This document shows, piece by piece, positions 13,222-35,034 of a stretch of DNA of 49,326 bases. Source of the DNA: Tindallia sp. MSAO_Bac2. GTDB taxonomy: Bacteria > Bacillota > Clostridia > Peptostreptococcales > Tindalliaceae. The notes beneath the pieces were generated by a model. That model was not told where the DNA came from. It saw nothing but the letters and a program-made list of their open reading frames with translations, and ran no database searches. Position 1 is the stretch's first letter. Each line of letters opens with the position of its first letter. The translations under genes and the position numbers were made by a program. Where the stretch lies: positions 1 through 49,326 of the forward strand of contig QYZZ01000108.1 in the NCBI GenBank assembly GCA_003838145.1, read 5' to 3'.

Positions 13222-13835
13222 TTGTTCACGCTCCTAACCTTCTCTATTACTTCACAGATTTTCACTTCAGATTTTATTCCATTTTCCTCAACACCACTGC
13301 TAAGATCCACAATATCCGGCTCAACTGTTTCGATGGCTTCTTGGACATTATCAGCATTAAGGCCACCAGCCAGTATCAGTTTTCCTTTTACCGACAGATC
13401 GCGAACCCATTCCCAGGGAAACGTAACGCCATTTCCACCCCGGAGAGGACCGGAGGCGTCCAGCAAATATCCATCCACCAGGTACTCCTTCGTTTGCTCA
13501 AGGTCGCCGGGTTCCTTAATGGAGAAACTCTTCCAGACCTGATACCCTTCCTTTTTTATATTCGAGCAATAGTCCGGACTTTCATCTCCATGCAGCTGAA
13601 TAATATCCAAAGATACATGTTTCCCAATTTCCAAAAGTTCCGCAGCTGTTTTGTTTACAAACACACCAACCCTCAGAATGGATGCATCAAGTCTATTTAC
13701 AAGCTGAGCTGCCTGATCTGGCGTTACCTGTCTTTTGCTGGGAGCAAATACCAAACCCATATAATCCGGCTTTCCTTTCCGGATGCCTGACAATTCATCC
13801 ATTTTGCTGATACCGCATATCTTGACTGCCGTCAT
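13218..13835 (-). CDS. trpF: Phosphoribosylanthranilate isomerase
   Basis: Amadori rearrangement of PRA to CdRP, a (beta/alpha)8 enzyme. The 205 residues begin [12 protein letters not shown], carrying the catalytic Cys of the KICG motif. The phosphate site [10 protein letters not shown] and a catalytic Asp in LLDASG are present, and the chain ends with the family's [21 protein letters not shown] precedes the ATG, which overlaps the trpC stop by four bases (ATGA). It is a stand-alone TrpF, not fused to TrpC as in enterics. Confidence 0.97.
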
Positions 13836-14647
13836 GACGCTTCTCCTCTCAGTTTTCTTAACGCATCACCCGGAAAGCGATTCGTGACAATGCTTTCTCC
13901 AACCAGAACCCCTGAAGCGCCATAGCCTTTGACTATCTGACAATCCTGGAAGGTTTTGATGCCACTTTCACTGATCATGTGAATTCCCCTGGGAATATCA
14001 TGACTCAGTTTTTCCGTTGTCGTTAAATCAACCTGCATGGTTTTTAAGTTCCGGTTATTTATGCCAATAAAGTCAACTTCAGGTTGCAGGCTTAAGGACT
14101 TAACCCGTTCCAATTCTTCTTTATTATGAACCTCCAATAAGCACTGTAAATTTAACTGACGGGCTGTCTGATGAAAGGTCTTCAATTCCTGATCTGATAA
14201 AGCAGCTGCAATCAAAAGAATAATATCTGCTTTCATTTCTTTGCTCTGATAAATCTGGTAAGTGCTTATAATAAAATCCTTTCTTAAGACCGGTAAATGA
14301 ACAGCCTGTTTTACTTCTGAAAAGTCATCGAAGGAACCTTTAAAATAGCTTGGTTCTGTTAAAACAGATATGGCTGCAGCACCTGCTTCCTGATATATTT
14401 TAGCCAGATCACCAGGGTTTTCTATCTCACACAACATCCCTTTGGATGGAGATGCTCTTTTTATTTCTGCGATGATGGCAGGAGTTTCCTTTTCTTTTGT
14501 TTTTTCTATTAACTGGGGTAGTAGTTTTATTGGTGCTTTTTGGAGTAGTTCATGCTTTTCCATTTTTTCAACCAATATATTCATAGGAACAGCATCCTGT
14601 TGAATCTGCAAATTATGTCTGGTTTTATCTATTATTGTTTTCAGCAT
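13832..14647 (-). CDS. trpC: Indole-3-glycerol phosphate synthase
   Basis: Ring closure and decarboxylation of CdRP to indole-3-glycerol phosphate. It has 271 residues with the family blocks: AEIKRASPSKGML (catalytic Lys), VLTEPSYFKGS, LRKDFIIS (second catalytic Lys), LLEVHNKEEL (Glu), FIGINNRNL and the C-terminal phosphate loop GVLVGESIV. The N-terminal 60 residues form the usual extra helix. Its ATG lies within the last codons of trpD, a 7-base overlap. Confidence 0.98.
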   Translation of the reverse strand: MLKTIIDKTRHNLQIQQDAVPMNILVEKMEKHELLQKAPIKLLPQLIEKTKEKETPAIIAEIKRASPSKGMLCEIENPGDLAKIYQEAGAAAISVLTEPSYFKGSFDDFSEVKQAVHLPVLRKDFIISTYQIYQSKEMKADIILLIAAALSDQELKTFHQTARQLNLQCLLEVHNKEELERVKSLSLQPEVDFIGINNRNLKTMQVDLTTTEKLSHDIPRGIHMISESGIKTFQDCQIVKGYGASGVLVGESIVTNRFPGDALRKLRGEAS

Positions 14648-15675
14648 GCCATTTCCCCTACCCTTTTATGATTCGTGCGCATCAGCTCATAGAACTCTAA
14701 CGCCCTGCCGTCATCAATGATTTCTGCAGCTTTCAAAACACCTTCCTGAAGATTTCTGGCAATGCCGGCAACATAAAGTACGGCTCCGGCATTGAGGAGA
14801 ACAATAGAACGGCTTCCATCCCGTTTCCCTTGCAATACCTGTTGTATTTTTATTGCGTTTTCTTCAGGACCGCTTCCTTCCAGCTCGCCCTGGCCGACCA
14901 ATTCCAACCCCAGTTTCTCCGGCTGGATGGTATATTCCAGAATTTCTCCATCTTTCACTTCGCACACATAAGAATCGCCAGTAACCGTTAGTTCATCCAA
15001 CCCATCAGAACCATGTACGATCATGGCATGTTTAACGCCTAATTCCATTAATGCTTCGGCCATCGGTCTGACCAGAGCAACATCGTAAACCCCCATTACC
15101 TGATGTTCTACGTTTCCAGGATTAACCAGCGGTCCCAGCATGTTAAATATACTTCTGAATCCGAGCATTTTCCTCACTCCGGCAGCATGTTTCATACAGG
15201 CGTGATAATCCGGTGCGAATAGAAAAGCCATTCCATAACGATGTAGTTTTCCCAATGCCTCTACCGGTTCCTGATGAATGGAAATCCCTAAAGCTTCCAG
15301 CACGTCAGCACTGCCAGACTTACTGGATACACTTCGGTTTCCATGCTTTAACACTTTCGCCCCGCCGGCAGCCGCCACCAGTGCAGCTGCAGTGGATACG
15401 TTAAATGTTTTTCCTCCATCTCCACCCGTTCCACAGGTGTCCACTGCGTCAGAACATGGATGAGGCAGTGCTTTGGCACGGCTCCGAATCACTTTCGCCG
15501 CCGCCACCAATTCTTCTACTGTTTCTCCTTTATGACGAAGTGCCGTTAAAAAAGCGGCCAGTTGTATCTCATGTACTTCCCCATCCATAATGGCGTTCAT
15601 GCTTTCTGTCATTTCGTCTGTATTTAAGGAATGGTTCTCCATTAGTTTTTCAATGATTCCCGTTATACTTTTCAT
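14641..15675 (-). CDS. trpD: Anthranilate phosphoribosyltransferase
   Basis: Transfers phosphoribose from PRPP to anthranilate. The 344 residues carry the PRPP-binding DTCGTGGDGGKTFNVST loop, KHGNRSVSSKSGSADVLEALG, and the FNMLGPLVNP block with the Arg-rich anthranilate site before it. It is a separate protein, not fused to TrpG. Its ATG overlaps the trpG stop by four bases. Confidence 0.98.
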   Translation of the reverse strand: MKSITGIIEKLMENHSLNTDEMTESMNAIMDGEVHEIQLAAFLTALRHKGETVEELVAAAKVIRSRAKALPHPCSDAVDTCGTGGDGGKTFNVSTAAALVAAAGGAKVLKHGNRSVSSKSGSADVLEALGISIHQEPVEALGKLHRYGMAFLFAPDYHACMKHAAGVRKMLGFRSIFNMLGPLVNPGNVEHQVMGVYDVALVRPMAEALMELGVKHAMIVHGSDGLDELTVTGDSYVCEVKDGEILEYTIQPEKLGLELVGQGELEGSGPEENAIKIQQVLQGKRDGSRSIVLLNAGAVLYVAGIARNLQEGVLKAAEIIDDGRALEFYELMRTNHKRVGEMAC

Positions 15676-16247
15676 GCTGCCTTCTCCTCTCTCAGGAAAT
15701 TTTTCAGGATTTCTTTACCATGCTCTGTTGCCAAGGATTCCGGGTGAAACTGAAGTCCGAAAATCGGATAATGCTTATGTTCCATTGCCATTATTTCTTT
15801 TTGATCCGTAAGAGCTGTTACCATCAGTTCAGGCGGCAATGCTTTCGGGCTTACCACCAGTGAATGATAACGAGTCGCCTGAAAAGCTTCGGGGATGCCT
15901 TTCAAAATTCCGCTATTCTTGTGGTAAATTTTGTCTGTTTTTCCATGAACCCTTCGGTTTGCATGAACAACTTTTCCGCCAAAGGCTTCTCCCATGGCCT
16001 GATGTCCCAGGCATATTCCCAAGGTTGGAATATGGGGGCCCAACTGACGAATGGCATCAATGGAAATGCCGGCATCGACGGGAAATCCCGGCCCGGGAGA
16101 TATAACCAGGTGAGAAGGCCCCATTCTTCTTAATTCTTCGACAGTAACAGCATTGTTTCGAATGACTTTTACCTCCGGATTTATCTCTCCGATGTACTGA
16201 AACAAGTTATAAGTAAAGGAATCATAGTTATCTAAAATAATAATCAT
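15672..16247 (-). CDS. trpG: Anthranilate synthase component II (glutamine amidotransferase)
   Basis: Supplies ammonia from glutamine to TrpE. A 191-residue class I amidotransferase with the triad visible: nucleophile Cys in LGICLGHQAMGEAFGG, and His/Glu in GLQFHPESLATEHG. The N-terminal IIILDNYDSFTYNLFQY is typical. In many Firmicutes TrpG/PabA also serves p-aminobenzoate synthesis; its place inside this operon points to tryptophan. Its ATG overlaps the end of trpE (ATGA). Confidence 0.97.
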   Translation of the reverse strand: MIIILDNYDSFTYNLFQYIGEINPEVKVIRNNAVTVEELRRMGPSHLVISPGPGFPVDAGISIDAIRQLGPHIPTLGICLGHQAMGEAFGGKVVHANRRVHGKTDKIYHKNSGILKGIPEAFQATRYHSLVVSPKALPPELMVTALTDQKEIMAMEHKHYPIFGLQFHPESLATEHGKEILKNFLREEKAA

Positions 16248-17728
16248 TGCGCTTTCTCCTCTCTTTCCTCATCTTCCACCAGAACCTGTAACATACCCTG
16301 GGCTTTTCGGTAGCTTTCCTGATACTCTGCCTCTGGGACAGAATCTTCAACAATTCCGGCACCCGCCTGCACGTACGCTTTCTGATCCTGAAACAGCACG
16401 CTCCGGATGGTGATGCATGTGTCCATGTGCCCGTTATAGCTGAAATATCCCACCGCCCCGCCGTAGGGCCCTCTTTTTACCGGCTCAAGCTCATCGATGA
16501 TTTCCATGGCTCGTATTTTGGGGGCTCCGGACAATGTTCCCGCCGGCAGGCAGGATGCCAGTGCGTCAAATGTGTTTGTGTTATTTCTTAGTTTTCCCTG
16601 AACCTCTGTGACCAGGTGCATTACATGAGAAAACTTTTTAACTACCATAAAGGGATCTACCTTAACACTTCCAAACTCCGAAACTCTTCCCACGTCGTTT
16701 CTGGCCAAATCCACCAACATAAGATGTTCTGCCTTTTCTTTTTCATCGGATGCCATTTCCGTTGCCAGGAGTTCATCTTCTTCCGTCGTTTTCCCCCTTG
16801 GCCTTGTTCCCGCTATAGGACAAGTCTCAATGGTGCCCTTGGTGCATTTAACCAACATTTCCGGCGAAGCGCCAACCAGCTGATAATCATCAAAGTCAAA
16901 GTAAAATAAATATGGCGAAGGGTTTAGATTTCTAAGCTTCCGATAAGTCTCGAAGGGAGCTGGTGCCGGTTCCACGCAGTAGCGTTGCGATAAGACCACC
17001 TGGAAAATATCACCATTTCGAATGTATTCTTTGGCCTTCAAGATTTTTTCCGAGAAACTGTCTTTCGTTTCTGTACTGCTAATGCTCCTGTTCTTATATT
17101 GACTGCCATGTTTTTCCATTTTTTTAACCACTGGCTGATGAATTGTTTCTTCCATTTGCTTTAGCTTTTGAACGGCTTTTCCATAGTTATGAAATAGGGA
17201 TCCCTTTGTTTCAGTTACCACCATCAACAGGATGGTCTGTCGGGCATGGTCAAAGGCCACTAACTGATTCATGATAAAAAAATCCGCGTCCGGCAGCTGT
17301 CGGTCGTCCTCTCCCGGTTCTCCCAGGTTTTCATACTGCCGAATCAAATCGTATCCCATGGTGCCAACAGCACCGCCGATAAAGTCCGGACCTTCTTCGA
17401 TGGGCGATGGAATTGCATCTCCCAGCATCTCTTTTAGATGATCCAGAACTTTCCCCTCCCCTTCTTCAATACAGCCGTCCCGATACGTCACTTTCCATTT
17501 CAGGCCATAAGATGTTAATCGTTTTTCCGGTTTACTGCCGATAAATGAATACCTTCCACGCCGGACACCATCGGCCACACTTTCCAATAAAAATGTGCCG
17601 CCTGGCTGCTGCAGTTTTTGGTATAAGGTGATGGGTGTTTCCGTATCTCCCGGCAATTCTGCAGTTACACAGACACGATGATTATTTTGGGCTTTCTTTT
17701 TATACGCTTCATAAGGCATGATTTTCAT
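16244..17728 (-). CDS. trpE: Anthranilate synthase component I
   Basis: First committed step of tryptophan synthesis, chorismate to anthranilate. The 494-residue protein keeps the tryptophan feedback site LLES near residue 49 (TFLLESV), so it should be inhibited by tryptophan. The catalytic chorismate-binding half has IFQVVLSQRY, LFYFDFDDYQLVGASPE, the CPIAGTRPRGKT lysine/threonine block, DLARNDVGRV, LPAGTLSGAPKIRAMEII and GPYGGAVGY. GGAGG lies eight bases before the start. It is the first gene after the T-box leader. Confidence 0.98.
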   Translation of the reverse strand: MKIMPYEAYKKKAQNNHRVCVTAELPGDTETPITLYQKLQQPGGTFLLESVADGVRRGRYSFIGSKPEKRLTSYGLKWKVTYRDGCIEEGEGKVLDHLKEMLGDAIPSPIEEGPDFIGGAVGTMGYDLIRQYENLGEPGEDDRQLPDADFFIMNQLVAFDHARQTILLMVVTETKGSLFHNYGKAVQKLKQMEETIHQPVVKKMEKHGSQYKNRSISSTETKDSFSEKILKAKEYIRNGDIFQVVLSQRYCVEPAPAPFETYRKLRNLNPSPYLFYFDFDDYQLVGASPEMLVKCTKGTIETCPIAGTRPRGKTTEEDELLATEMASDEKEKAEHLMLVDLARNDVGRVSEFGSVKVDPFMVVKKFSHVMHLVTEVQGKLRNNTNTFDALASCLPAGTLSGAPKIRAMEIIDELEPVKRGPYGGAVGYFSYNGHMDTCITIRSVLFQDQKAYVQAGAGIVEDSVPEAEYQESYRKAQGMLQVLVEDEEREEKAQ

Positions 17729-17862: not shown

Positions 17863-17902
17863 AAAAAACGCACCCCATCCTAAAGTTAGGACGAAATGCG
17901 TT
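17863..17902 (-). terminator. First (promoter-proximal) T-box terminator
   Basis: AACGCATTTCGTCCTA (17902-17887) pairs over all 16 positions with TAGGATGGGGTGCGTT (17882-17867), counting G-U pairs, around an ACTT loop, and the transcript runs into TTTTTT. The 5' arm begins just after T-box 1, the usual arrangement for mutually exclusive antiterminator and terminator. Confidence 0.88.
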
Positions 17903-18156
17903 GATTCCGTGTTGCCACCCATGTTAGACGATTAAACCGTCTCACTCTTTACAGGTACGGAAGAATAAACCTTCGATACCCTGTCCTGTTAACGGTGGAC
18001 TTCCGGCCAACACTACTCCTTTCGTTTGGTGCGGCTTCTCCTGGAACCATTCAGCAACCTGACCGCCACCGGGCTTCCACCTTCCCCGGCTCGCTTTAGA
18101 CTTACAGTTGTTGCTTACTTTTTCCATTCACTGAATTTCTGTTGTTATTTCTGTCT

Positions 18157-20818: not shown

Positions 20819-20917
20819 TGTTTTTCCTCCTAAGTTGAAAAGGATTATTAATTAAGAAATATTTACCCACAATGGTGTTTATCTACGCATTGCTACATAA
20901 AAAAGTTGATGGCTTAA

Positions 20918-22198
20918 TTATGAGTCATTGTTTTTCTGTAAAAGTTGCAAGGTATCTTCTATCATTCTTTTTCTCAGTATACATTCCTGCTCAAAGGATA
21001 ATTCAGGATTACCCACAGGATGTGGTATCGCAATCCCAGGTAATATCCTTACTGCACCGACGGTTTTGGCAATGGGAGTGATGGTGCAAATTTGAACAGT
21101 AGGTATCCCGGCATTTTCCAGTTCTTTAGCAATCGTTGCACCGCAACGGGTACAAGTACCTCAAGTGCTGGTAAGAATCACGCCGTCAACGCCATTATTA
21201 TTTAGTTCCATTGCCATTTCTTTCCCCATTCTTTTTGCATCCGCAACGGAAGTCGAGTTTCCCGTGGTAGACAAAAAATAGGGGTATAGCTTACCAATTC
21301 TACCATTATTCTCCATTTCTCTCATTATATCCAGCGGTACGATCCGGTTAGGGTCATCGTTCCCATAAACCGGGTCATATCCGGCATGAACGGACTCATA
21401 GTCACCTTTTCTCAAAGCATTGATGCCGGAAATGTTATACCTGGAGTAAAATTTAGCTGTCGCTGCAGGTAAATGATTCGGGTTTCCATTGGGAACAATC
21501 CCGCCGGAGGTCACCAGCGCAATGCAGGCTTCTTCCACCTTTAAGATTGGTGGTGCTGCCTCGATAACATCGTAAGATGGTATTGGCACTTCTGATTCAT
21601 AGGGCTCATCATTCAGTTTTGCTACCAGCATATCCAGAGCCCTTACAGCTCCTGTCTTTTCTTTGAATACATTTACACGAATACCTTTAGGAATCAAAAC
21701 CGATTCTGGTTTTTCCAGTTCGGTTCCTTCCATAATCTTTTTTACAATCCCCGTCATAGCCTCAACTGTTTTTTTCATGGAAGCAGCTGATTTTCCGGAC
21801 TTAACGATGGTTACATCAGATTTATAAATCTCCACTGCAGGATTTTCTTCATATATAGCCGTAACAGCTGGAATATTCATTTCTTTTTCCACCCGGGAGC
21901 ATATTTCGCCACATGCCATTCCAAACCGTCCAGCATTAAATGCAGGCCCTGCTATTACTATATCCGGTTTGGCCTCTTTAATCATTATCATGATTTCCTC
22001 ACTGGCTTTTGACACGTTCTCTGAGAAATAGTTGTCTCCACAGATGATGGTTCTTGTCAATTCAGCATCTTTCAGTGCTTGCCTGAAAAGATTAGCGGTT
22101 CCAACAGCACCTTCTTTGAAAAGAGGTGGTATATTCGCCTGTTCCTCTCCACCAACTTGCCCGAAAAACTGATTGGTATAAATAACGATTCGTTTCAT
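20918..22198 (-). CDS. Glycine/sarcosine/betaine reductase component B, selenocysteine subunit (GrdB/GrdF/GrdH family)
   Basis: Substrate-specific component B reductively cleaves the C-N bond of glycine or its N-methyl derivatives and passes a carboxymethyl group to selenoprotein A. The frame runs from ATG 22198 (GGGGGAG upstream) through UGA at 21163-21161 (codon 346) to TAA at 20920-20918, 426 residues. Residues around the UGA read LTST-U-GTCTRCGAT, the canonical active-site motif of this family, so reading UGA as selenocysteine is secure. Translation stays open for 80 residues beyond it (IPTVQICTITPIAKTVG and so on). The N terminus RIVIYTNQFFGQVGGEE is typical. The partner proprotein gene lies 11 bases upstream. 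No grdA, grdC, grdD or grdX is in the window, and the substrate subtype cannot be told from sequence alone. Confidence 0.95.
21134..21163 (-). promoter_or_regulatory. Candidate SECIS hairpin of the GrdB-type gene
   Basis: Twelve bases after the UGA, CGTTGC (21148-21143) pairs perfectly with GCAACG (21139-21134) around a GGU loop. Position and loop G-U fit a bacterial SECIS read by SelB. Confidence 0.65.
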
Positions 22199-22209
22199 CC
22201 CACTCCCCC

Positions 22210-23490
22210 TTAAACGGTCACTGCACTTAGTTTACTGTACCCCTGAAGATTATGACTTCCCATAATTCCATGGACTTCTATTAACAGGCTGCCATCAGAC
22301 TGTACAGATCCGACAAAACCACCGGTTGTCCGCTCAATGCTTTTCAAGTCACCGATCACTTTTTTCATTGGCGGCAGTTGGATCATTGCATTACTATTCC
22401 CTGTTGTGACTACAGCATCCGCCAGAAGAGTTCCATCTGGCAGTGATTCTGATTTTCCATCCACACCGGCATCCTCATTAGTAATAATAACTGTTTTGAT
22501 TCCTTTTTTCTCCAGGGCTTCGCAGATCATCATTAAATCCGTTGTTGGATTGCCAAAACCTTCCTGCGATTGCACAACACCATCAGCTCCTATCAACTCC
22601 ACTAATCCGGCAGTTATTTCCTTGTTTCTGATTTTTTCTTCCAGGGTGATCATTAAAGGCGTCAGCACAATGCCTATAAAGCAAATCTCTTCGCCGTGGC
22701 GTTTAAAGCATTCTTCGATGATGGCGTTATTCTGATGATGATATGTCGTTGTTTTGGATCCGGGGGATACACAGTTTCCGCTGACAATGGCACCATCATA
22801 AACAGCAAGAGGAGAAACCAGAGTGGGTAGCATTTTTTTTGAATCTTTCCCAAAATAATAAGTGTCATGCAGCAGTCCCTGACTCATGCAATTGTAGACA
22901 TAAACCACCTTCGGAAGCTCCGGGTATTCACTTGCCAATTCGTATGCACTTTTCCAGCTAATGATTTTCTTGGTATAACCTTCCGTTTCACGCACACAAC
23001 GAGCTATAAACTCCGCAGCAGTAACCCCTGCCAACCTGACAACTTCTTCATGTTCATGAGGCTCGATTCCTGCCTGTTTTTCAATTTGGATTACAATATT
23101 ATTGAGATGCGCAAAGGGAGTATAATCTGTCAGGGGGCCAGACATGTCGATGATTCCTTCCTGAAATCCAACAATGGGGCCCGTTGTCACGACAGCACAG
23201 TTTTTTAGGGCGTAAGTTATTCCTTCACCTATGCCTTCAAACTCTCCTAATATACCCGGAAAGGCTGCCTGTTCATTCTTTGTTCTCGGCTCAATTACGT
23301 CTTTAACCGGCAGAATTCTCACGGACTCTCCAGGCCTTGCCAGATCAATTTCAACCTTGCTTACACGCATATCTTTCTTTATAACTCTTGTTATCTCTTC
23401 TCTGTTTAACGTCAGTTCGTGATCGATATATCGGGTTTCATCACCAAAAGCTATATTTTTTACAGCAAACTCCCTGATCTCCAGGTTCAT
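22210..23490 (-). CDS. Glycine/sarcosine/betaine reductase component B proprotein (GrdE/GrdG/GrdI family)
   Basis: Encodes the alpha and gamma subunits of component B as one 426-residue proprotein. In this family the chain is cleaved before a Cys that becomes a pyruvoyl group binding the substrate amine. Here the likely site is Asn239-Cys240 in AIVSGNCVSPGSKTTTYHHQNN, which would give halves of about 26 and 20 kDa. Other family blocks are TTGPIVGFQEGIIDMSGP, GVTAAEFIA and SQEGFGNPTTDLMMICEALE. Its ATG overlaps the permease stop codon (TAATG), so translation is coupled. It forms the complex with the selenocysteine subunit encoded next. The EamA and AEC permeases upstream presumably import the substrate. 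Confidence 0.94.
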   Translation of the reverse strand: MNLEIREFAVKNIAFGDETRYIDHELTLNREEITRVIKKDMRVSKVEIDLARPGESVRILPVKDVIEPRTKNEQAAFPGILGEFEGIGEGITYALKNCAVVTTGPIVGFQEGIIDMSGPLTDYTPFAHLNNIVIQIEKQAGIEPHEHEEVVRLAGVTAAEFIARCVRETEGYTKKIISWKSAYELASEYPELPKVVYVYNCMSQGLLHDTYYFGKDSKKMLPTLVSPLAVYDGAIVSGNCVSPGSKTTTYHHQNNAIIEECFKRHGEEICFIGIVLTPLMITLEEKIRNKEITAGLVELIGADGVVQSQEGFGNPTTDLMMICEALEKKGIKTVIITNEDAGVDGKSESLPDGTLLADAVVTTGNSNAMIQLPPMKKVIGDLKSIERTTGGFVGSVQSDGSLLIEVHGIMGSHNLQGYSKLSAVTV

Positions 23491-25412: not shown

Positions 25413-25446
25413 TCAGCCCTTCATCACCATGGTGATAAAGGGCTGA
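25413..25446 (-). terminator. Terminator hairpin after rnfD
   Basis: TCAGCCCTT (25413-25421) pairs with AAGGGCTGA (25438-25446), continued by ATCACC/GGTGAT with one mismatch between. The minus-strand tail is only TTTAT, so strength is uncertain. It ends the fdhE-fdnGH-rnfCD operon 20 bases after the rnfD stop. Confidence 0.7.
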
Positions 25447-25466: not shown

Positions 25467-26429
25467 CTATTGAGTTGGCATCGCAATTTTTTTAGGTTCG
25501 CTGAATGGTTTTCTCTTTGTTGCATTTTCAATGGCAGGAACAAAAGCATTCATGATCAGTATCGAGAAAGCTACGCCTTCTGTCGGGGCAAGACCAATCC
25601 GAAAAACAACTATCAAAATACCGATGGCTACACCAAACACAATTTTTCCTTTCTCTGTAATAGGACTGGTAACCCAGTCAGTTGCCATAAAAAATGCTCC
25701 CAGCATCAACCCTCCGGTCACCATATGCAAGAATGGGTTATGGCCCGTCAGGAGTGCCAGCACGAAAACAGTCAGCACAATAGAAACTGGAATTCTCCAG
25801 TTAATATGCCCACGGTATAAAAGGAATAATCCTCCCAAAATTAATGCAAGCGGAGACACCTCACCCATGGCACCTCCCGGATATGCCAAAAACAAACTTC
25901 CTGCTCCCGGTAATTCCAGGCCTTGGTGCATCATAGCAAGGGGAGTGGCATGTGTCATAACGTCAACAGGACCAAAGTTTACATTCCAGCGCATAAACTC
26001 TGTACTAACATTCACAAACCAGGGAGCAAGGAGTATCATTGATACTCTGCCAAAAAGGGCAGGATTGAAACGATTCCATCCCAGTCCTCCCATAAGTTCT
26101 TTAGCAATTCCAACGGCTATTACAGTAGCCAGAACACCTTTCCACCAGGCAGTTGTTGCAGAGTAGCAGAGCGCTACAAAAAGTCCCGTCAGTATCGCAC
26201 TGCCATCCCCGAGATTATGTCTTCGATTTTGAAATTTTCTGAATGCAATTTCTGTTAATGCTGCCGTTCCCATACAAACAGCAATAAAAAATACTGCATA
26301 CATCCTGAAGAAGTAAATTGACACAAAGGTAACCGGCATCAGCGCCAGCATAGTATCTCTCATTGCTTTTCCTACCGTTTCATCAGACTTTATATGAGGA
26401 GCAGGAGATGCATTGAGTTTTGGATTCAT
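25467..26429 (-). CDS. rnfD: RnfD-family flavinylated membrane subunit
   Basis: A 320-residue NqrB/RnfD-family membrane protein. In Rnf complexes RnfD carries covalent FMN on a Thr and helps move electrons and Na+ or H+. The chain shows about nine hydrophobic helices, the family block GDGSAILTGLFVALCYS, GGLGWNRFNPALFGRV, and the flavinylation motif T-H-A-T before PLA, with Thr162 the expected FMN attachment site. FMN transferase ApbE is not in the window. It starts 16 bases after rnfC with a good ribosome-binding site. Unlike normal rnfCDGEAB loci no G, E, A or B gene follows; a terminator does. It therefore probably works with the formate dehydrogenase encoded upstream, unless it is an operon remnant. 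Confidence 0.92.
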   Translation of the reverse strand: MNPKLNASPAPHIKSDETVGKAMRDTMLALMPVTFVSIYFFRMYAVFFIAVCMGTAALTEIAFRKFQNRRHNLGDGSAILTGLFVALCYSATTAWWKGVLATVIAVGIAKELMGGLGWNRFNPALFGRVSMILLAPWFVNVSTEFMRWNVNFGPVDVMTHATPLAMMHQGLELPGAGSLFLAYPGGAMGEVSPLALILGGLFLLYRGHINWRIPVSIVLTVFVLALLTGHNPFLHMVTGGLMLGAFFMATDWVTSPITEKGKIVFGVAIGILIVVFRIGLAPTEGVAFSILIMNAFVPAIENATKRKPFSEPKKIAMPTQ

Positions 26430-26445
26430 CTTTTTACCTCCTTTC

Positions 26446-27771
26446 TTACCCTGTTTTGCCAGCTCGAGATCTTTCTTTCAATTCAGGTTGGATTTTGCGA
26501 ACAAAATCTGCAATTGGACGATGTCCGGGGCATACATATGAGCATATACCGCAATCCATACAATCTGAAGCATTCCATTTTTCCAGCAGGTCATATAGTT
26601 CCGCTTCTGCATATATACTAAGCTGGTTCGGATAAAGATGCATGGGACAGTATTCAACACACTTGCCGCAACGAACACAATCTGTATATGGAACTTCTGC
26701 GGATGCCATATCCGGCGGAAGTACCAGAATTCCCGTTGCACTTTTTACAATTCCGGGCTCCAGGGTAGTGAGCGCTTTGCCTGTCATGGGGCCTCCCATT
26801 ACAATTTTACAGCCTTCTTCAGGCACCACGTCGCATTGTTGCAAAATAAAATCAACCGGCGTTCCTATTTTCACTATATAGTTTCCCGGTTTGCCAACTT
26901 TAGGCCCACTGACAGTTACGACTCTTTCAATCAATGGTTTTCCATATACGACAGCTTCATACCCGGCTATCGTTGTACCAACATTACGAACCACACAGCC
27001 TAAATCTGCTGACCTGGCACCACGGGGAACATCTCTTCCGGTGATTGCTTTAATCAGTGTTGATTTATATCCTTGGGGATACTTAACTTCCAACGGCACA
27101 ACTTCCATCCCCGGTTCATTTTCAAGCATCTTCTGCAATTTATCAATAGCGTCAGGCTTATTTACTTCGATGCCAATATAGCATTTCTCAGCTCCGATAC
27201 ACCTCATCATGATTTTTGCTCCAGCAATAAGTTCTTCTGATTTTTCCAGCATCAAGCGATGATCACAGGTTAAAAAGGGTTCGCATTCCGCTCCATTTAA
27301 CAAAAGTGAATCAACTGGTGTTTTGGGGCTTATATTTGCGTGGGTAGGGAATGCAGCTCCTCCCATTCCCACCAGACCAGCTTCTCGAATAGCACTTCTC
27401 AGTTCTTCCACACTCATCGATTCCGGATCCCTTTGAACAGTAGGATGGAATTCATGTTCATCACCTTCTGACTCAATTCTGACAGACAAAGCCTCTCCAC
27501 CTGCATAATAGGGAAAATAATCAACATCTGTTACAACTCCATTTGCACTGGCATGTACGGGCGCACTGATAAATTCCGTGCTGTCGCCTATCTTCTGTCC
27601 AACTTTGACTTTGTCACCTTTTTTAACCAATGGCTCATTTGGAGCCCCAATATGCTGGGATAACGGTATAATAACGTATGGAGCAACAGCCATTTTTTCT
27701 ATTTCTATGTGCTCTGTCCAAGATTTATAATGTGGAATATGGGCGCCACCTTTAAAGGTTTTTGCTTTCAC
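26446..27771 (-). CDS. rnfC: RnfC-family NAD(H)/FMN iron-sulfur subunit
   Basis: The cytosolic NAD(H)-oxidising or NAD+-reducing module of Rnf-type complexes, 441 residues, full length. N-terminal GGAHIPHYK corresponds to the family GGIHPPEYK block and is followed by a biotinyl-like fold to about 100. The NADH/FMN region has AGLVGMGGAAFPTH (132-144) and LLLNGAECEPFLTCDHRLM (156-174). A SLBB-like stretch follows. Two [4Fe-4S] motifs end it: Cys365, 368, 371, 375 and Cys404, 407, 410, 414. The start is GTG with a perfect AAGGAGGTGA. It lies directly between the formate dehydrogenase beta subunit gene and rnfD, so it probably links formate oxidation to NAD+. Confidence 0.94.
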   Translation of the reverse strand: MKAKTFKGGAHIPHYKSWTEHIEIEKMAVAPYVIIPLSQHIGAPNEPLVKKGDKVKVGQKIGDSTEFISAPVHASANGVVTDVDYFPYYAGGEALSVRIESEGDEHEFHPTVQRDPESMSVEELRSAIREAGLVGMGGAAFPTHANISPKTPVDSLLLNGAECEPFLTCDHRLMLEKSEELIAGAKIMMRCIGAEKCYIGIEVNKPDAIDKLQKMLENEPGMEVVPLEVKYPQGYKSTLIKAITGRDVPRGARSADLGCVVRNVGTTIAGYEAVVYGKPLIERVVTVSGPKVGKPGNYIVKIGTPVDFILQQCDVVPEEGCKIVMGGPMTGKALTTLEPGIVKSATGILVLPPDMASAEVPYTDCVRCGKCVEYCPMHLYPNQLSIYAEAELYDLLEKWNASDCMDCGICSYVCPGHRPIADFVRKIQPELKERSRAGKTG

Positions 27772-27791
27772 GACCTCACCTCCTTTTTCAG

Positions 27792-28598
27792 TTATCCTTT
27801 ATAATCCGAAGGGTTTGTTTCTTTATTTTTTTTAGCGGCATCTTTCAGTTCCCGACTTTTATTGTAATTCGTCCATAGTCCAAGACCCATTGCCAAAACC
27901 ACAAAAATTCTCAGGGGTTTAAATAGCATACTCCATAATCTTGCCTGCAATGGAACTTCAGGAGCCAGCGGAAGATTATACTGCGAAGGTGTATCTTCAA
28001 GAATATACATCATACCGGTTCCACCAACTTCATCCAGCCCATAGAGTGTTGCTTGCTGGCTGCCATGATTTTGAAGATGCATAACACGTTGACTTGCACG
28101 GTTAATTAAATCTCTTCTCTCACCAAAATCTATGGCTCCAGTCGGACAGGCGGCGGCACAGGCAGGTTTGTATCCATTTGAAACCCGGTCATAACAAAAC
28201 GTGCATTTAGTTGGCAAGTCTGTTTTTCTGTCAAAACTGATCACTTTAAAAGGACAGTTTGCCGCACAATAATTACACCCAATGCATTTATTAAAATCTA
28301 TGTCTACCGCACCGGTGTCCGTATGATAAATGGCCCCCACCGGACAGACAATTTCACAGGCAGCATCCGTACAGTGCATACATCGCTGGTTTCCAAAATA
28401 CCACTTAACTCCATTGTCTGTCTCTTTTTCCTGAAAAGTAACTCTCATCCAGGTTAAGGGCGATACTCTTGGAGGATTTTCATAGCTTCCCGTAAATTCC
28501 GTGGAATCTGCTGGTAATTGATTCCACTGCTTACAGGCAACCTGGCAAGCTCTGCACCCCATGCATTTTGATGTATCAATCAGGATGGATTGTGCCAT
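27792..28598 (-). CDS. fdnH: Formate dehydrogenase-type iron-sulfur (beta) subunit with C-terminal membrane anchor
   Basis: Electron-transfer subunit of 268 residues with four [4Fe-4S] motifs: CMGCRACQVAC (from residue 12), CMHCTDAACEIVC, CIGCNYCAANC and CTFCYDR followed by CAAAC. A single hydrophobic helix (IFVVLAMGLGLW) near residues 232-243 precedes a lysine-rich tail, like the anchor helix of E. coli FdnH. It has no signal peptide and would be co-exported by the Tat system with the alpha subunit. It begins three bases after the alpha gene. The usual next gene, the cytochrome b gamma subunit, is absent; rnfC comes instead. Confidence 0.94.
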   Translation of the reverse strand: MAQSILIDTSKCMGCRACQVACKQWNQLPADSTEFTGSYENPPRVSPLTWMRVTFQEKETDNGVKWYFGNQRCMHCTDAACEIVCPVGAIYHTDTGAVDIDFNKCIGCNYCAANCPFKVISFDRKTDLPTKCTFCYDRVSNGYKPACAAACPTGAIDFGERRDLINRASQRVMHLQNHGSQQATLYGLDEVGGTGMMYILEDTPSQYNLPLAPEVPLQARLWSMLFKPLRIFVVLAMGLGLWTNYNKSRELKDAAKKNKETNPSDYKG

Positions 28599-28601
28599 TG
28601 A

Positions 28602-31601
28602 TTACACCACCTTTCGTATGTTACAGAGGAATGCTTTATATTCTGGAATGGTGGTATTTGGGTCACCAAATGATGGGGTTATATCATTGGCTACCGGTCC
28701 TTTGGATAGTCCGGCAAATCCCCAGTGCCATATAATGCCAACCATTTCCAATGTTTTTCCACCAGCGTTGAATGACTTAATTCTTGGTGTGACGCATACA
28801 GGTGCTTCAAACTCACCACGGTGACTTGATACAATAACTTTTTCACCATTTGTTACACCAACTTTTTGCGCCAGCGATGGGCTGATTTCTACAAATAAAC
28901 TAGGCATTGCCTCCACCAGCCATGGCATATTCCTCGTCATCATTCCAGTCTGATAGTGTTCGCTCAAACGATAGGAAGTTGCAATTATAGGAAACTGGTT
29001 TTCTTCTGCCGATCCCCTATCCTCCGGGTACCATACTGTAGAGCATGGATTGAACTGTACGCCTGAAAACTGATTCAACAATGGACTTTCCCATGGTTCA
29101 TAATGCTCCGGGAATGGCCCGTCTGCCATAGCATTACTAAACAGCCTAGATACCCCTTCAGCAGTCATAATGAAAGGACGTTTCGCAGATTCCTCTGGCG
29201 GCAAGCTGGCATTAAAATCTGGAACATCAAGGGATTCCCATTCAATTCCATTCCAGGCGAACAGGGGTAAATCAGGATTCCACGGATTACCCTGCGGATC
29301 CGCTGAACACCGATTGTAAATGATTCTTCGGTTAACGGGCCATGCATATGCCCAGTCCGGATGATTACCTATCCCTTCCGTTTCACGTATTCGTTTCTGA
29401 CAAGCAGGTTCATCCGGGTCAGCGTAATAACCTGCATATATCCAGTTTCCACTGGATGTGCTTCCATCGTCCTGCAGCTGTGCAAAGCTTGTAATAAGGT
29501 TTCCGGTGGTCAGGTCTTTTCCATTTATTTCCTGGGCTACTTCAGCTGAGCTGGCATTTTCACCATAATCCCAGTTCATTTTTAAAATTGGATCAGGAAA
29601 GGCACCGCCACTAGTTTCATATTCTTTACGAACTGCTTTAAACAGACGATCAACAATCCATAAATCCGGTTTTGCATCTCCCGGTGGTTCAATGGCTGCA
29701 TAACGCCATTGAATCCATCTGCCGCTGTTACTAATGGTTCCGTCTCTTTCAATGTGCAGCGCTGCCGGCAGCAGGAACACCTCTGTATCAATTTCCTCAG
29801 GATTAACTCCAGGTTCTTTCCAAAATGTAGCCGTTTCATTTTCAAAAATATCAACGGATATTATCCAGTCCAATTTTCTGGAGTAATCTCTTTTTCTTCC
29901 TGCTGTAGGTCCTCCTACAGCAGGGTTATCCGCCCAGCATATCATGCCTTTGATTTCGCCTTCGCCCGTGTATTTTGAACTGGCAATATGCGATCGCTCT
30001 TTATCCAGTTTTGGCAGATAATCATAACAGAAATCATTGTCTGGAGTTGCGTATTCACCCCAGAATGCCTTTAGTAAACTGTTAAAAAACTTAGGTCTGT
30101 TTTCCCAGTAACCTCCTGGTGTTGTGGCATGATAGTCAGCCAGTGTTGGGTGTGACTTTTCATGAGGAACCGGCATATAACCCGGAATAATGTGGTAGAG
30201 CATTGCCATATCTGTTGAACCCTGTACATTGGACTGCCCTCTCTGTGCATTTACACCGCCTCCAGGACGGCCCATATTGCCTAAAATTGACTGTAAGATA
30301 GCTATTGCCCTTACAGCCTCTGCACCGTGAGAAAACTGAGTAATGCCCATGGCATACATAACGTTTCCAGCCTTTTTAGGATCACCGGTGTCGCAAAACA
30401 GTTCCGCACATTCTTCCAGGGTTTTCAAAGGACAACCCGTTGTTTCACTGACTGATTTTAGATCGTATCGGCTGAAATGCTTTTTCATCAACTGATAAAC
30501 AGAATTAGGGTCCGCCAGCGTCTCATCTCTGACAATCTCTCCGTCACCATTCAGCTGGTAACTCCAGCTGCTTTTATCATATACATTTTTTTCTCCACCT
30601 ATGCCGTCGTCTTCTGTGGCAGCTCCGGAAAAATAACCATCCTCAAAATCAAATTCAGGGCTTACCAGGAAAGATGCATTTGTATAATGAATCAAATATT
30701 CTTCATGCACCAGATCATTTTTTAAAGCATAATTAATTAACCCGTTCAGAAAAGCAACGTTTGTTCCGGGTCTAATTGGAACGTAAAGATCTGACAGAGC
30801 AGCTGTTCTTGTAAAACGCGGGTCGACACAAATCAGTTTTCCGCCTTTATCTTTAGCTTTTTGAATCCATTTCATGGAAACTGGGTGATTTTCTGCAGTA
30901 TTTAGTCCGATGTTCATCAATACATCCGAATACTGATAATCACTCCAGTGATTTGTCATTGCACCTCTTCCAAATGTGGCGCCAAGCCCGGCGACCGTCA
31001 CAGAATGTCAGAGTCTTGCACAATGATCAATGTTAACCAGCCCGAGGGCTCTTGCCGTTTTGTGATATAAATAGTTTTCCTCGTTATTGCACATGGCACT
31101 TCCCAGCCAGGAAATTGCAGGATTTCTATTTACGGTAACACCTTCAGAATTTACTTCAATGAAATGATCGTCCCGTGTTTTTTTAATCCTCTTTGCAACA
31201 GTTTCCAGCGCCCAGTCCCAATCCACCACTTCCCACTCCGATGCCTTTGGCGCCCGGTATAATACCTGCGTTACACGATTAGGATTTGGAATTATATTTC
31301 CATCCTCATCATACACATTTGCCATGTTAAAAAGTGAACTGCCTTTACTGCACAAAGTTCCTTCATTTACCGGGTGATCCGGATCTCCTTCCGTATTAAT
31401 CAACTGACCGTCACGCACATGACATATGATGCCGCATCCGACTCCGCAGAATGGACATATTGTAGTTATTTCCCGGGAATAATGAAGCCTGAATCCGCGG
31501 GTGGTGCCTTCAGCTGTTGGTTTAAAGCCAAAGCTGTATAAAGTTGTTGCAGCAGCAGCTGTTCCACCTACTTTTAAGAACTGCCTTCTGGACAATTTCA
31601 T
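28602..31601 (-). CDS. fdnG: Formate dehydrogenase alpha subunit, selenocysteine-containing, Tat-exported
   Basis: Molybdo/tungsto-bis-PGD catalytic subunit oxidising formate to CO2, 999 residues. The frame is continuous only if UGA at 31010-31008 (codon 198) is selenocysteine. The surroundings, [28 protein letters not shown], match the E. coli FdnG/FdoG active site, where Sec is at 196, so readthrough is secure. The N terminus MKLSRRQFLKVGG with a following hydrophobic stretch is a twin-arginine signal peptide, so the enzyme faces outwards. A [4Fe-4S] cluster is bound by Cys49, 52, 56 and 84. The C-terminal molydopterin-dinucleotide domain is present (VGVTNGEKVIVSSHRGEFEA). It sits between fdhE and the beta subunit gene with 3-14 base spacings. 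Confidence 0.96.
30980..31010 (-). promoter_or_regulatory. Candidate SECIS hairpin of the formate dehydrogenase gene
   Basis: Fourteen bases after the UGA, CGCC (30993-30990) pairs with GGCG (30983-30980) around GGGCUU. The stem is shorter than those of the other two UGA sites here, so the exact fold is uncertain, although selenocysteine itself is secure from the protein. Confidence 0.5.
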
Positions 31602-31615
31602 TCCTTTTTCACCCC

Positions 31616-32476
31616 CTACTTTCCACTACCTCTCCAGTTTTCACTTTTTCTGACAGACTCACTCCATACAAGCTCAGATCCAGGCAGAAATCCTTCATTA
31701 ACAGCCAAATCATCAATCACCAGTGTTGCAAAGTGGTATAAAGGAAGCAATGGTCTGAAGCCTTCTACTTCTCTGAAATCAAAAACTTTAACATATTGTT
31801 TACACTGATGACATATATAGACTCTGACACCTGGTATTTCATCAACCTGGAAAAAACCGAGCTTGCTTTGCTCTTTTTCAAAGCAGTATGGGCATGTAAT
31901 TCTTTCTACTGTCCAGCGATGACCACATAGCCAGCATTCTAGTTCGCGATAACCTTCTTCAGAATGGAGCATCCCATAGTGGGGTTTTGTTGAACAACGT
32001 GGACACCCGGCATTTGTTTTTATTTCTTTGAAAGCTTCATCTTTTCCTTCATCTTTTGCTTCGTTTTTAATACGGTATAAATAGCCGAAGGCAAGTGTTA
32101 AAGTCCATGTTTCAACATCAGAACTGATCCATTCACTCTTATGGCTAATAAACTGACTGATTTTTTCCGGCCAGAAAATATTTTTGCTGCCAGATATCAT
32201 TTTTTCATATTCTTCCCATTTTGATGCTGCCAGCATCACAGCTTTCAATTTTTCTTTGTCTTTTTGAAAAACTGTTCCAAAAACATTTTTTACGTGCTCT
32301 GTAACCATCTCTCCATAATTGCTGTCATTCACAAGATTCATTCTTTTTCTATTGCCATCTTTTTCAGCGATACGATAATACTCTTTAAGCACATCAGCTC
32401 CTTCCCTAAAAAACGGATACCATTTAAGACAATGATATTGCGACTGATTAAAATCCCCATTTCCGATCGGGTACAT
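31616..32476 (-). CDS. fdhE: FdhE-family formate dehydrogenase maturation protein
   Basis: A 286-residue protein with the FdhE zinc/iron-binding architecture: pairs of cysteines CPRCSTKPHYG, CWLCGHRW, CPYCFEKEQ and CHQCKQYV between residues about 160 and 230, preceded by an alpha-helical domain. In E. coli FdhE binds the Tat-dependent formate dehydrogenases before export. Its presence supports the alpha subunit being an exported FdnG-type enzyme. It is the first gene of the operon, starting with AAGGGGG upstream, and ends 14 bases before the fdnG start. The 252-base AT-rich gap upstream, shared with the divergent aminopeptidase gene, must hold its promoter, but no box pair is clear enough to call. 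Confidence 0.88.
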   Translation of the reverse strand: MYPIGNGDFNQSQYHCLKWYPFFREGADVLKEYYRIAEKDGNRKRMNLVNDSNYGEMVTEHVKNVFGTVFQKDKEKLKAVMLAASKWEEYEKMISGSKNIFWPEKISQFISHKSEWISSDVETWTLTLAFGYLYRIKNEAKDEGKDEAFKEIKTNAGCPRCSTKPHYGMLHSEEGYRELECWLCGHRWTVERITCPYCFEKEQSKLGFFQVDEIPGVRVYICHQCKQYVKVFDFREVEGFRPLLPLYHFATLVIDDLAVNEGFLPGSELVWSESVRKSENWRGSGK

Positions 32477-33979: not shown

Positions 33980-34618
33980 TCACTCTGTCAAATAAATGGC
34001 TCTTATGGGAGATCCGTCGCCGCCATCTATTTTTAAAGGTAAAAACAAAAAGGTTCCTTTTGCATCTGGAACATGGTCGAGATTGCATAGATTTTCTACA
34101 ATGAGAATATCCCGGGACATTAATGTTTCATGCCCACTGAAAATACTCTCTTTTGTTGGGTCTATGTTCAGCGTGTCTATGCCTATTAGAGAAATATCCA
34201 TACCAAGGATTGCCTTTACTGCTTCCTCTGAAAGGAAGGGATGGTTTAAATATTCTTCCGTTCCAAAGTACTTATCCCAACCAGTATTAAAAATGAGAAA
34301 CCCGCCGGGTTGAATCATTGAAGTAAATGGATCAATATCTTCTCTGTTGATGCTTTCGCCGGCTTTTTTATCTTTCACCCTTATTATGGTTCCCATTCCA
34401 ATAAATCTGTCAAGGGGTATCTCATCAATTGCAGCTCCCTGGCTGCTAAAATGCCAGGGAGCATCAATGTGTGTTCCTGAATGACTTCCAAGGCAAAGCC
34501 TTTCTACCTGACAACCATCTTTCTCATGAGTATCCCAAGCCTCAATATTCACTTCCGGATCACCAGGATATATTTGCATATTACTTGTGATTCGATGGCT
34601 TAAATCTACGATTTTCAT
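33980..34618 (-). CDS. Cyclase-family metal-dependent hydrolase (kynurenine-formamidase-like)
   Basis: A 212-residue member of the cyclase/KynB family (COG1878). The metal-binding signature HSGTHIDAPWHF is at about 46-57, with the N-terminal VDLSHRITSNMQIYPGDPE and a C-terminal GGDGSPIRAI typical of the group. Members hydrolyse N-formylkynurenine, cyclic amides or isatin; without other kynurenine genes nearby the substrate is open. Its ATG overlaps the stop of the upstream gene by four bases (ATGA), so they are translationally coupled. Confidence 0.9.
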   Translation of the reverse strand: MKIVDLSHRITSNMQIYPGDPEVNIEAWDTHEKDGCQVERLCLGSHSGTHIDAPWHFSSQGAAIDEIPLDRFIGMGTIIRVKDKKAGESINREDIDPFTSMIQPGGFLIFNTGWDKYFGTEEYLNHPFLSEEAVKAILGMDISLIGIDTLNIDPTKESIFSGHETLMSRDILIVENLCNLDHVPDAKGTFLFLPLKIDGGDGSPIRAIYLTE

Positions 34619-35034
34619 CTGCCTTCACCCTGTTTTTCCCTGACAATTTGATCCAGCAACTCCGCCGCCACAAACACAACTTTCCTGCATTTTACGGGAG
34701 CATCTTCACGATAATTCTTTTTAAGCTGATCACACTTAATTGATCCCATTTCTTCCTTAAACCGATACATATAGTCTGTCACCATTTCTTTCATTTGATG
34801 GCTTTCGTGAGCTTTTTCACGAACGAATAAAACGCCTAAAACAGCTATCGCTCCAGATAATGCACCGCATGTATCCTCAATTGCCATACCACCACCAAAT
34901 CCAGCCATAGTCTTAAGCGTGCTCTTTTCAAGTTTCAGATCATAAATGTCATTGGCAGAATAAATCATGGCTTCAGCACAATTCAAGTCATATTTGGGTG
35001 AATAGTATTCTACTGCTTTATCTTTCAGCATCAT
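34615..35034 (-). CDS. C_GCAxxG_C_C family putative redox protein
   Basis: A small cytosolic protein of 139 residues with the spaced cysteines that define this family: NCAEAMIYS (first Cys at about 19), DTCGALSGAIAVLG with the CGAxxG core, SIKCDQLKK and PVKCRKVV. Four cysteines could bind a metal or cluster or form disulfides. Family function is unknown although members are common in anaerobes and often sit beside redox enzymes. AGGAGG lies four to five bases before tandem ATG codons at 35034. It is coupled to the cyclase-family gene. Confidence 0.85.
   Translation of the reverse strand: MMLKDKAVEYYSPKYDLNCAEAMIYSANDIYDLKLEKSTLKTMAGFGGGMAIEDTCGALSGAIAVLGVLFVREKAHESHQMKEMVTDYMYRFKEEMGSIKCDQLKKNYREDAPVKCRKVVFVAAELLDQIVREKQGEGR

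Follow-up and report, generated by a model that had tools for sequence, protein, structure and literature searches.

How can an exported formate dehydrogenase (FDH) hand on its electrons when neither its operon nor its genome offers a detectable quinone or cytochrome b route? This question is raised by a locus of Tindallia sp. MSAO_Bac2 (Bacillota, Clostridia, Tindalliaceae; GenBank assembly GCA_003838145.1) on contig QYZZ01000108.1, of which positions 1 to 49,326 of the forward strand were analysed and are hereafter called the window. Here, five genes on the minus strand at 25467-32476, in the order FdhE-like, FdnG, FdnH, RnfC and RnfD, combine an FDH of the formate dehydrogenase-N type with two subunits otherwise known from the Rnf complex. 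We propose that the five genes specify a single membrane-bound formate:NAD(P)+ oxidoreductase, in which electrons probably travel from FdnGH through RnfCD to the nicotinamide adenine dinucleotide (NAD) or NAD phosphate (NADP) pool without Na+ pumping; if a Na+-pumping variant is counted in, such an electron path appears very likely from the sequences. The features of the operon, from its first gene to its end, are as follows.

31616..32476, minus strand: FdhE-like accessory protein, 286 amino acids, first gene of the operon; weak match to TIGR01562 (41.7 bits, cut-off 187.65).
28602..31601, minus strand: fdnG, formate dehydrogenase-N type alpha subunit, 999 amino acids; TIGR01553 at 1106.3 bits (cut-off 814.2).
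31008..31010, minus strand: selenocysteine codon 198 of fdnG, UGA, in the context HCARL-U-H; the reading frame runs through the UGA.
30955..31013, minus strand: SECIS_3-like hairpin spanning the UGA and downstream bases; RF01989 at 31.1 bits, E 9.7e-6.
27792..28598, minus strand: fdnH, beta subunit with 16 Cys (four [4Fe-4S] clusters expected) and one C-terminal hydrophobic segment.
26446..27771, minus strand: rnfC, NAD(P)H/flavin mononucleotide (FMN) protein with two [4Fe-4S] motifs, 441 amino acids; TIGR01945 at 499.8 bits, over the cut-off.
27064..27066, minus strand: codon of RnfC Lys236, placed by profile alignment onto Escherichia coli NuoF Glu183.
25467..26429, minus strand: rnfD, electron-carrying membrane protein of 320 amino acids with two flavin sites; TIGR01946 at 256.8 bits, over the cut-off.
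25944..25946, minus strand: codon of RnfD Thr162, the predicted covalent FMN site (equivalent to Acetobacterium woodii Thr156) by alignment.
25413..25446, minus strand: stable hairpin 3' of rnfD at the operon end, from folding.

The original prediction, made from the DNA letters alone, had described a compact run of five genes with spacings of 3-20 bases, and the gaps along the operon are indeed 14, 3, 20 and 16 bases. Its reading of FdnG as a selenoprotein exported by twin-arginine translocation (Tat) was confirmed by the frame running through the UGA, by the TIGR01553 score and by a PF10518 match at the N-terminus (25.2 bits versus a threshold of 22.7). The SECIS_3 match came from a 111-base search and scores under the gathering score of 63, and the element was not listed in a whole-window search at the gathering score. 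The predicted membrane anchor and four clusters of FdnH agree with its 16 Cys and C-terminal hydrophobic segment, and its top match in the PDB is E. coli FdnH (1kqf_B); against TIGR01582 it scores 233.9, under that model's cut-off of 334.7. The identities given to rnfC and rnfD hold at the NCBIfam cut-offs. The first gene, expected to be fdhE, matches the FdhE model only weakly; similar open reading frames also lie upstream of the FDH gene in other loci of the kind described below (L020, L024, L028, L031, L112, L114 and L116; loci, contigs and genomes carry our own L, C and G numbers). Similarly, the hairpin behind the operon is a real and strong fold (71 bases at -28.8 kcal/mol, z -5.1), whereas a terminator scan of the window lists no terminator at 25413-25446. 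As predicted, gene calls and a profile search of the locus found neither a cytochrome b gamma subunit nor rnfG, rnfE, rnfA or rnfB in the operon.

The genome of the window (2.48 Mb, 97.5% complete) contains a full rnfCDGEAB cluster on another contig (C34), with C, D, G, E, A and B each over the NCBIfam subfamily cut-off, and one ApbE, so that both elements sought elsewhere in the genome were found. A split Rnf locus is thus ruled out: the case of rnfGEAB occurring elsewhere without another rnfCD does not apply, as the C34 Rnf has its own C and D. A second operon of like design was found on contig C121 (locus L006), with a TorD-like chaperone, a PhsA-like protein, an Fe-S beta subunit, RnfC and RnfD; the PhsA-like molybdopterin oxidoreductase is Tat-exported and scores 466.9 against the PhsA model (cut-off 694). 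Between the two orphan RnfC proteins, from the window and C121, the identity is 60.5%, compared with 41-45% to the RnfC of the ordinary Rnf; for the two orphan RnfD proteins, the values are 55.3% between them and 39-44% to the ordinary RnfD.

Near the PhsA-like-RnfCD operon, at L006 599-5109, lies a further FDH-like alpha subunit (with a match at C121:31561-32619) beside a NuoF-type protein, a set that by eye resembles NAD-linked or bifurcating enzymes.

The arrangement is widely kept. A scan of 84,980 species genomes, based on two short peptide patterns taken from the two orphan RnfC proteins, returned 177 relatives, and the best 80 were kept; 17 of these show 59-85% identity and the other 63 at most 47%. 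In all 17 loci of the former group, RnfC and RnfD adjoin oxidoreductase subunits; the 63 other loci include at least one of RnfG, E, A and B in 56 cases and an FDH- or Phs-type subunit in none. Extra genome sampling added seven loci (L112-L118): matches at E<=1e-145 were obtained in four genomes of a 398-genome phylum sample and at E<=1e-130 in six of 60 relatives, the window's own genome included each time, and two of three class members of G341 carry a linked copy, both already among the set. In total, there are 26 linked loci in 22 genomes, including the window and L006, all from Bacillota where named; named carriers include Tindallia sp. (a metagenome-assembled genome, MAG), Anoxynatronum buryatiense Su22, with the Phs version on contig NZ_FXUF01000002.1, and Syntrophomonadaceae MAGs. 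When the FDH alpha subunit itself served as the query, at E<=1e-100, one of 291 class genomes matched, namely that of the window.

In all 26 linked loci RnfC and RnfD adjoin each other, which rules out a chance adjacency, and in 25 the gene just before RnfC encodes an Fe-S beta subunit; the exception, L034, has the order C-D-beta-small-large. The partners are an FDH in 17 loci, a PhsA-like reductase in seven, an [NiFe] hydrogenase in one (L034, identified by PF00374 and PF14720 matches) and a beta subunit alone in one (L113). An FDH alpha subunit is seen in 13 of the 17 FDH loci, the contig ending within or just before the beta gene in the other four. The selenocysteine motif carries UGA in 11 of the 12 alpha copies in which it was found and Cys (TGC) in L033; it was not found in L023 and L027, both cut sequences. 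Profiles for RnfG, RnfE and RnfA matched none of the 26 loci within the 3.3-49 kb of DNA available per locus, several being short contigs (down to 3.3 kb) to whose DNA this absence is limited. Matches to the RnfB profile were weak (17-37 bits) and fell mostly on ferredoxin-like beta subunits and RnfC. The arrangement whose conservation the original prediction had proposed to check is kept in 26 loci.

Several of these and related loci deserve separate mention. L113 (8633-11883) has an Fe-S beta subunit with a Tat-like N-terminus of its own (by eye), RnfC and RnfD and no adjacent catalytic subunit; the catalytic partner of this module may be encoded elsewhere. In L036 (4864-9288), RnfD follows a second FDH alpha gene with no intervening beta or RnfC gene found; a beta-RnfC-RnfD set lies a few kb away. 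In L031, a second FDH alpha-beta pair (12819-16700) directly follows the complete FDH-RnfCD operon, with no RnfCD of its own in the available DNA, and the two pairs may share one RnfCD. Two uncultured bacteria have a stand-alone RnfC (L092 373-1779; L093 6120-7490), the available DNA showing neither RnfD nor any further Rnf gene, upstream of apparent leucine- or homocitrate-type pathway genes (a homocitrate synthase model match in L092; by eye in L093).

Phylogenetic analysis placed the linked RnfC proteins in one clade comprising 19 of 83 rows (support 100/100) and, in a second tree that took 8 of the 64 Rnf rows, 26 of 34 rows (100/99). For RnfD, both the counts and the trees draw on 26 of the 27 linked rows, representing 25 loci (two rows are from L036, and the cut L025 is left out); the trees also include 19 Rnf rows out of 57 and one or two rows from the window's genome. 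Here too the linked copies form one clade (26 of 47 rows, 100/99); the tree gave a long-branch warning for its Nqr row, and when rebuilt without that row the clade was recovered again (26 of 46 rows, 100/100). Both clades sit on long stems. Thus, the FDH-linked copies fall into clades of their own, as the original prediction had proposed to examine, together with the PhsA-like- and hydrogenase-linked copies. The window operon fits this group, with RnfC and RnfD in the clade, an extracytoplasmic oxidoreductase beside them and no RnfG, RnfE or RnfA found.

In the RnfC clade, copies with PhsA-like or hydrogenase partners branch from among those linked to an FDH. Partners were swapped, because the partner label needs 6 changes on the tree (minimum 3), and the starred branches force at least 4 changes for FDH and at least 3 for PhsA-like partners. 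This pattern would not be accounted for by a spare Rnf subunit and indicates re-use of the RnfCD module with different enzymes; with one clade serving FDHs, PhsA-like reductases and an [NiFe] hydrogenase, it suggests that RnfCD is a general module. The finding is therefore wider than first claimed, as other extracytoplasmic oxidoreductases are served as well.

The cofactor sites required for electron transfer are retained. In the cryo-electron microscopy structure of the A. woodii Rnf, as described in the available text of PMC11889175, RnfD connects to RnfC, the FMN on RnfD Thr156 faces the outside, riboflavin bound by Asn123 and Asp249 faces the inside, and the variants N123A and D249A show no ferredoxin-dependent NAD+ reduction. 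Asn122 and Asp251 of the window RnfD align with the two riboflavin ligands and are invariant in all 26 linked RnfD rows (25 loci) and in all 57 Rnf-type RnfD. The residue at the centre of the predicted flavinylation motif, Thr162, aligns with the FMN-carrying Thr, a position occupied by Thr in 22 and Ser in 4 of the 26 linked rows. Likewise, the eight cluster Cys of RnfC are invariant in 26/26 linked and 64/64 other RnfC. At the same time, 14 columns in RnfD and 22 in RnfC set the linked copies apart as a group in MAFFT alignments of the 26 linked rows with 57 (RnfD) or 64 (RnfC) others; two further alignments hold 16 of the 27 RnfD (A2) and 15 of the 26 linked RnfC plus one ordinary RnfC (A3). 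An AlphaFold model of the window RnfD (mean predicted local distance difference test score, pLDDT, 73) superimposes on 9eri_D with Z 35.7 and a root-mean-square deviation of 3.8 A over 290 aligned residues and has the RnfD fold; region 144-160, around the FMN loop, is modelled at pLDDT <50.

Profile searches of the window's genome gave no match to PF01292, NrfD (PF03916) or UbiA (PF01040), whereas 8, 4 and 14 of 14 control genomes, respectively, were matched. PF01292 is the family of FdnI. A quinone route for this FDH is unlikely in the window's genome because none of the three families was matched; no route was detected by which the enzyme could be quinone-linked. Among nine carrier genomes, UbiA was found in three and not found in the window's genome and five others. 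In a review (PMC8578096), Tindallia californiensis is tabulated without cytochromes, quinones or Rnf, the last at odds with the complete Rnf of the window's genome, which is probably of the same genus. In this bacterial family, therefore, the FDH is left without a visible conventional partner, although other carriers may have quinones, and we do not claim the lack of quinones as the driver of the RnfCD system. The proposal that RnfCD stands in place of the quinone-reducing module is supported by the linkage, the clades and the undetected quinone or cytochrome b route.

In the contig C48 of the same genome, an NqrB-C-D-E-F-like cluster was observed (L007 4855-8775), including an NqrF-type protein with Fer2, FAD and NAD domains; no NqrA or RnfC frame occurs in the approximately 400 bases upstream before the contig end. 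This Nqr-like complex, too, has no evident quinone, as the genome gives no UbiA match.

From these data we infer the formation of a complex, the path and direction of its electrons, the coupling and the choice between NAD and NADP. The Tat-exported, selenocysteine-containing FdnG and FdnH would sit on the outer face of the membrane, where FdnH, by homology to FdnGHI, would be in position to feed the outer FMN of RnfD. Electrons would then pass from FdnH via the covalent FMN and the inner riboflavin into RnfC, where two [4Fe-4S] clusters and FMN would relay them to NAD(P)+. For Rnf, PMC11889175 and PMC9588780 describe the second half of this path, which starts at the outer FMN of RnfD and leads inward through RnfC to NAD+. 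FdnGH would thereby stand in for RnfG (and the upstream RnfB, A and E), and RnfCD for the cytochrome b/quinone module. For each formate, two electrons would move inward, the proton of formate would stay outside and one proton would be taken up inside, so the reaction would be electrogenic without any pump. Forward flow would build membrane potential, and the potential could in turn drive the reverse reaction, in which NAD(P)H yields formate outside from CO2. The potentials are about -420 mV for CO2/formate and about -320 mV for NAD(P)+; on these values, forward flow could support roughly 100 mV. In the PhsA-like and hydrogenase versions, electrons would more likely flow outward from NAD(P)H, aided by the potential.

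The original prediction had NAD+ as the inner acceptor. A path to NAD(P)(H) is supported, but with RnfC residue 236 altered, NADP+ may be the acceptor in place of NAD+: this position is Lys in 25 of 26 linked RnfC (the exception is L116), Glu in all 64 Rnf-type proteins compared, and Ala in E. coli RsxC and the Azotobacter chain. It aligns with NuoF Glu183, the residue that bars NADPH from complex I. Lys236 thus hints at NADP(H) as the partner of the linked RnfC. Two further changes, Leu-to-Arg 253 and Pro-to-Ser 254, were dropped as NADP(H) markers, as Arg253-Ser254 is common to the Azotobacter and E. coli proteins.

How far this electron path is coupled to ions is the question on which the strongest alternative turns. 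The original prediction had allowed for coupling to Na+ or H+ movement. Charge movement by the electrons appears more probable, and no Na+ pumping would be expected because the locus lacks RnfA and RnfE, to which the A. woodii model assigns Na+ transport. In the alternative, the path is the same and RnfD also moves Na+ against the direction of the electrons, which would make the complex a Na+-pumping formate dehydrogenase. For the Clostridium tetanomorphum Rnf, PMC9588780 describes a migration of Na+ between the flavins of RnfD in the direction counter to that of the electrons, which lends this version some plausibility, and many carrier MAGs have isolate names in the style of soda-lake sediments. 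On the other hand, the A. woodii study places Na+ transport at RnfA/E and finds no Na+ path in RnfD, and alanine variants at the proposed RnfD Na+ sites grow fully autotrophically (PMC11889175). RnfA/E was found in 0/26 linked loci, and a driving force of about 100 mV is little for charge movement plus pumping. We consider a Na+-pumping version unlikely.

Alternatively, the RnfC and RnfD of the operon could be spare subunits of the ordinary Rnf, with FdnGH donating its electrons elsewhere. The genome does encode a complete Rnf, and both proteins keep the examined Rnf cofactor residues, as such a role would demand. Against it stand the long-stemmed clades, the 26/26 linkage, the 14 RnfD and 22 RnfC distinguishing columns and the exchange of partners while RnfCD is kept, and we regard this explanation as highly improbable. 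A formate:quinone reductase, in which RnfD would reduce quinone like its homolog NqrB, with RnfC as a side branch, finds some encouragement in the UbiA-family protein of 3/9 carriers and deserves scarcely any credence in view of the missing UbiA match in the window's genome and five carriers versus 14/14 controls, the listing of T. californiensis without cytochromes and quinones in the table seen of PMC8578096, and the RnfC cluster Cys kept in 26/26.

Several observations weigh against the proposed FdnGH-RnfCD oxidoreductase or parts of it. At 97.5% completeness, a quinone or cytochrome gene of the window's genome might have been missed, and with a UbiA-type prenyltransferase in 3/9 carriers the lack of quinones is not general. 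Ser replaces the FMN-bearing Thr in four Phs-linked RnfD (L006, L026, L117 and L118). The argument for NADP(H) depends on the role of NuoF E183, and with Arg253-Ser254 shared by the Azotobacter and E. coli RnfC/RsxC, Lys236 alone is special. Four of the 17 FDH loci were assigned by the beta subunit only, the contig ending there, and two more genomes of the genus (G675 and G269) gave the Phs-type copy only. Finally, the inner history of the module appears unsettled because the RnfC and RnfD trees disagree on L116, which is the earliest branch for RnfC and groups with L028-L031 for RnfD (100/98).

In comparison with known systems, the operon resembles E. coli FdnGHI (1kqf) in its Tat-exported, selenocysteine-containing TIGR01553 alpha subunit and in the 16 Cys and C-terminal hydrophobic segment of its beta subunit, but has RnfC and RnfD instead of a cytochrome b gamma subunit. 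It shares with Rnf (A. woodii, 9eri; C. tetanomorphum, 7zc6) an RnfC and RnfD with the examined flavin and Fe-S ligands, and the half-path from the outer FMN through riboflavin to RnfC would be the same; unlike in Rnf, RnfG, RnfE, RnfA and RnfB are not in the locus, and the electrons would come from an external oxidoreductase, not from ferredoxin. Partial sets of Rnf/Nqr parts with a proposed one-direction transmembrane electron transfer also characterize the NQR/RNF-like systems (Meheust et al. 2021, PMC8238504; PMC10979944), which, in the text available, have an RnfG-like protein and an RnfD-NqrF fusion in which the flavinylation Thr is not conserved. Here, in contrast, RnfC and RnfD are separate, the Thr is kept and the partner is an FDH; the 320-residue RnfD matches PF03116 only, without a fused NqrF-type PF00175, and no RnfG-profile match occurs in the 26 loci. 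The terms 'RnfC', 'formate' and 'molybdopterin' are absent from the main text of PMC8238504, as are 'RnfC' and 'formate' from PMC10979944.

The closest earlier description concerns the draft genome of the haloalkaliphilic syntroph Candidatus Syntrophonatronum acetioxidans, in which, according to the available text of PMC6295475, RnfC, RnfD and two RnfG were taken as an Rnf complex of three subunits. Like the Tindallia system, it has RnfC and RnfD, no A, E or B is reported, and the FDH alpha subunit is Tat-exported; unlike in the present proposal, its authors do not, in that text, link RnfC/D/G to the FDH. This partial 'Rnf' may be the same system. A search of the open-access literature, with most subscription papers outside it, found no earlier description of RnfCD tied to an FDH, a thiosulfate-type reductase or a hydrogenase. 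Taken together, the linked loci represent a real, conserved module that is a new combination of known parts.

Extracellular respiratory Mo/W enzymes are normally coupled to quinones or cytochromes. If correct, our reading would link them to the NAD(P)H pool directly and without quinones, by means of half of a known ion pump, and would offer a concrete explanation of how some syntrophs turn electrons at the NAD(P)H level into extracellular formate or H2. Some annotations of an 'incomplete Rnf' may then become a working complex. Furthermore, the RnfCD half of Rnf, isolated in nature, would make it possible to test directly if RnfD moves Na+ by itself and could decide between the A. woodii and C. 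tetanomorphum models. More tentatively, and with rather more doubt than confidence, RnfCD might be a third membrane module beside cytochrome b and NrfD, namely a quinone-free, NADP(H)-switched wire in which the potential pushes NADPH electrons out to formate, H2 or sulfide, or potential is gained in reverse, and by which quinone-less soda-lake and digester organisms, fermenters as well as syntrophs, would carry out reverse electron transport.

Elsewhere in the window, a GrdB-family selenoprotein (glycine/sarcosine/betaine reductase B) is encoded at 20900-22198 on the minus strand, with selenocysteine at position 346 and a SECIS_4 element at 21123-21160, and a component B subunit lies beside it at 22210-23490. 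A T-box leader (17884-18140, minus strand) precedes an anthranilate synthase gene (16244-17728), the two perhaps marking the start of a trp operon. Just past the FDH operon, a C_GCAxxG_C_C redox-active protein (34615-35034, minus strand) adjoins an arylformamidase-like gene (33980-34618).

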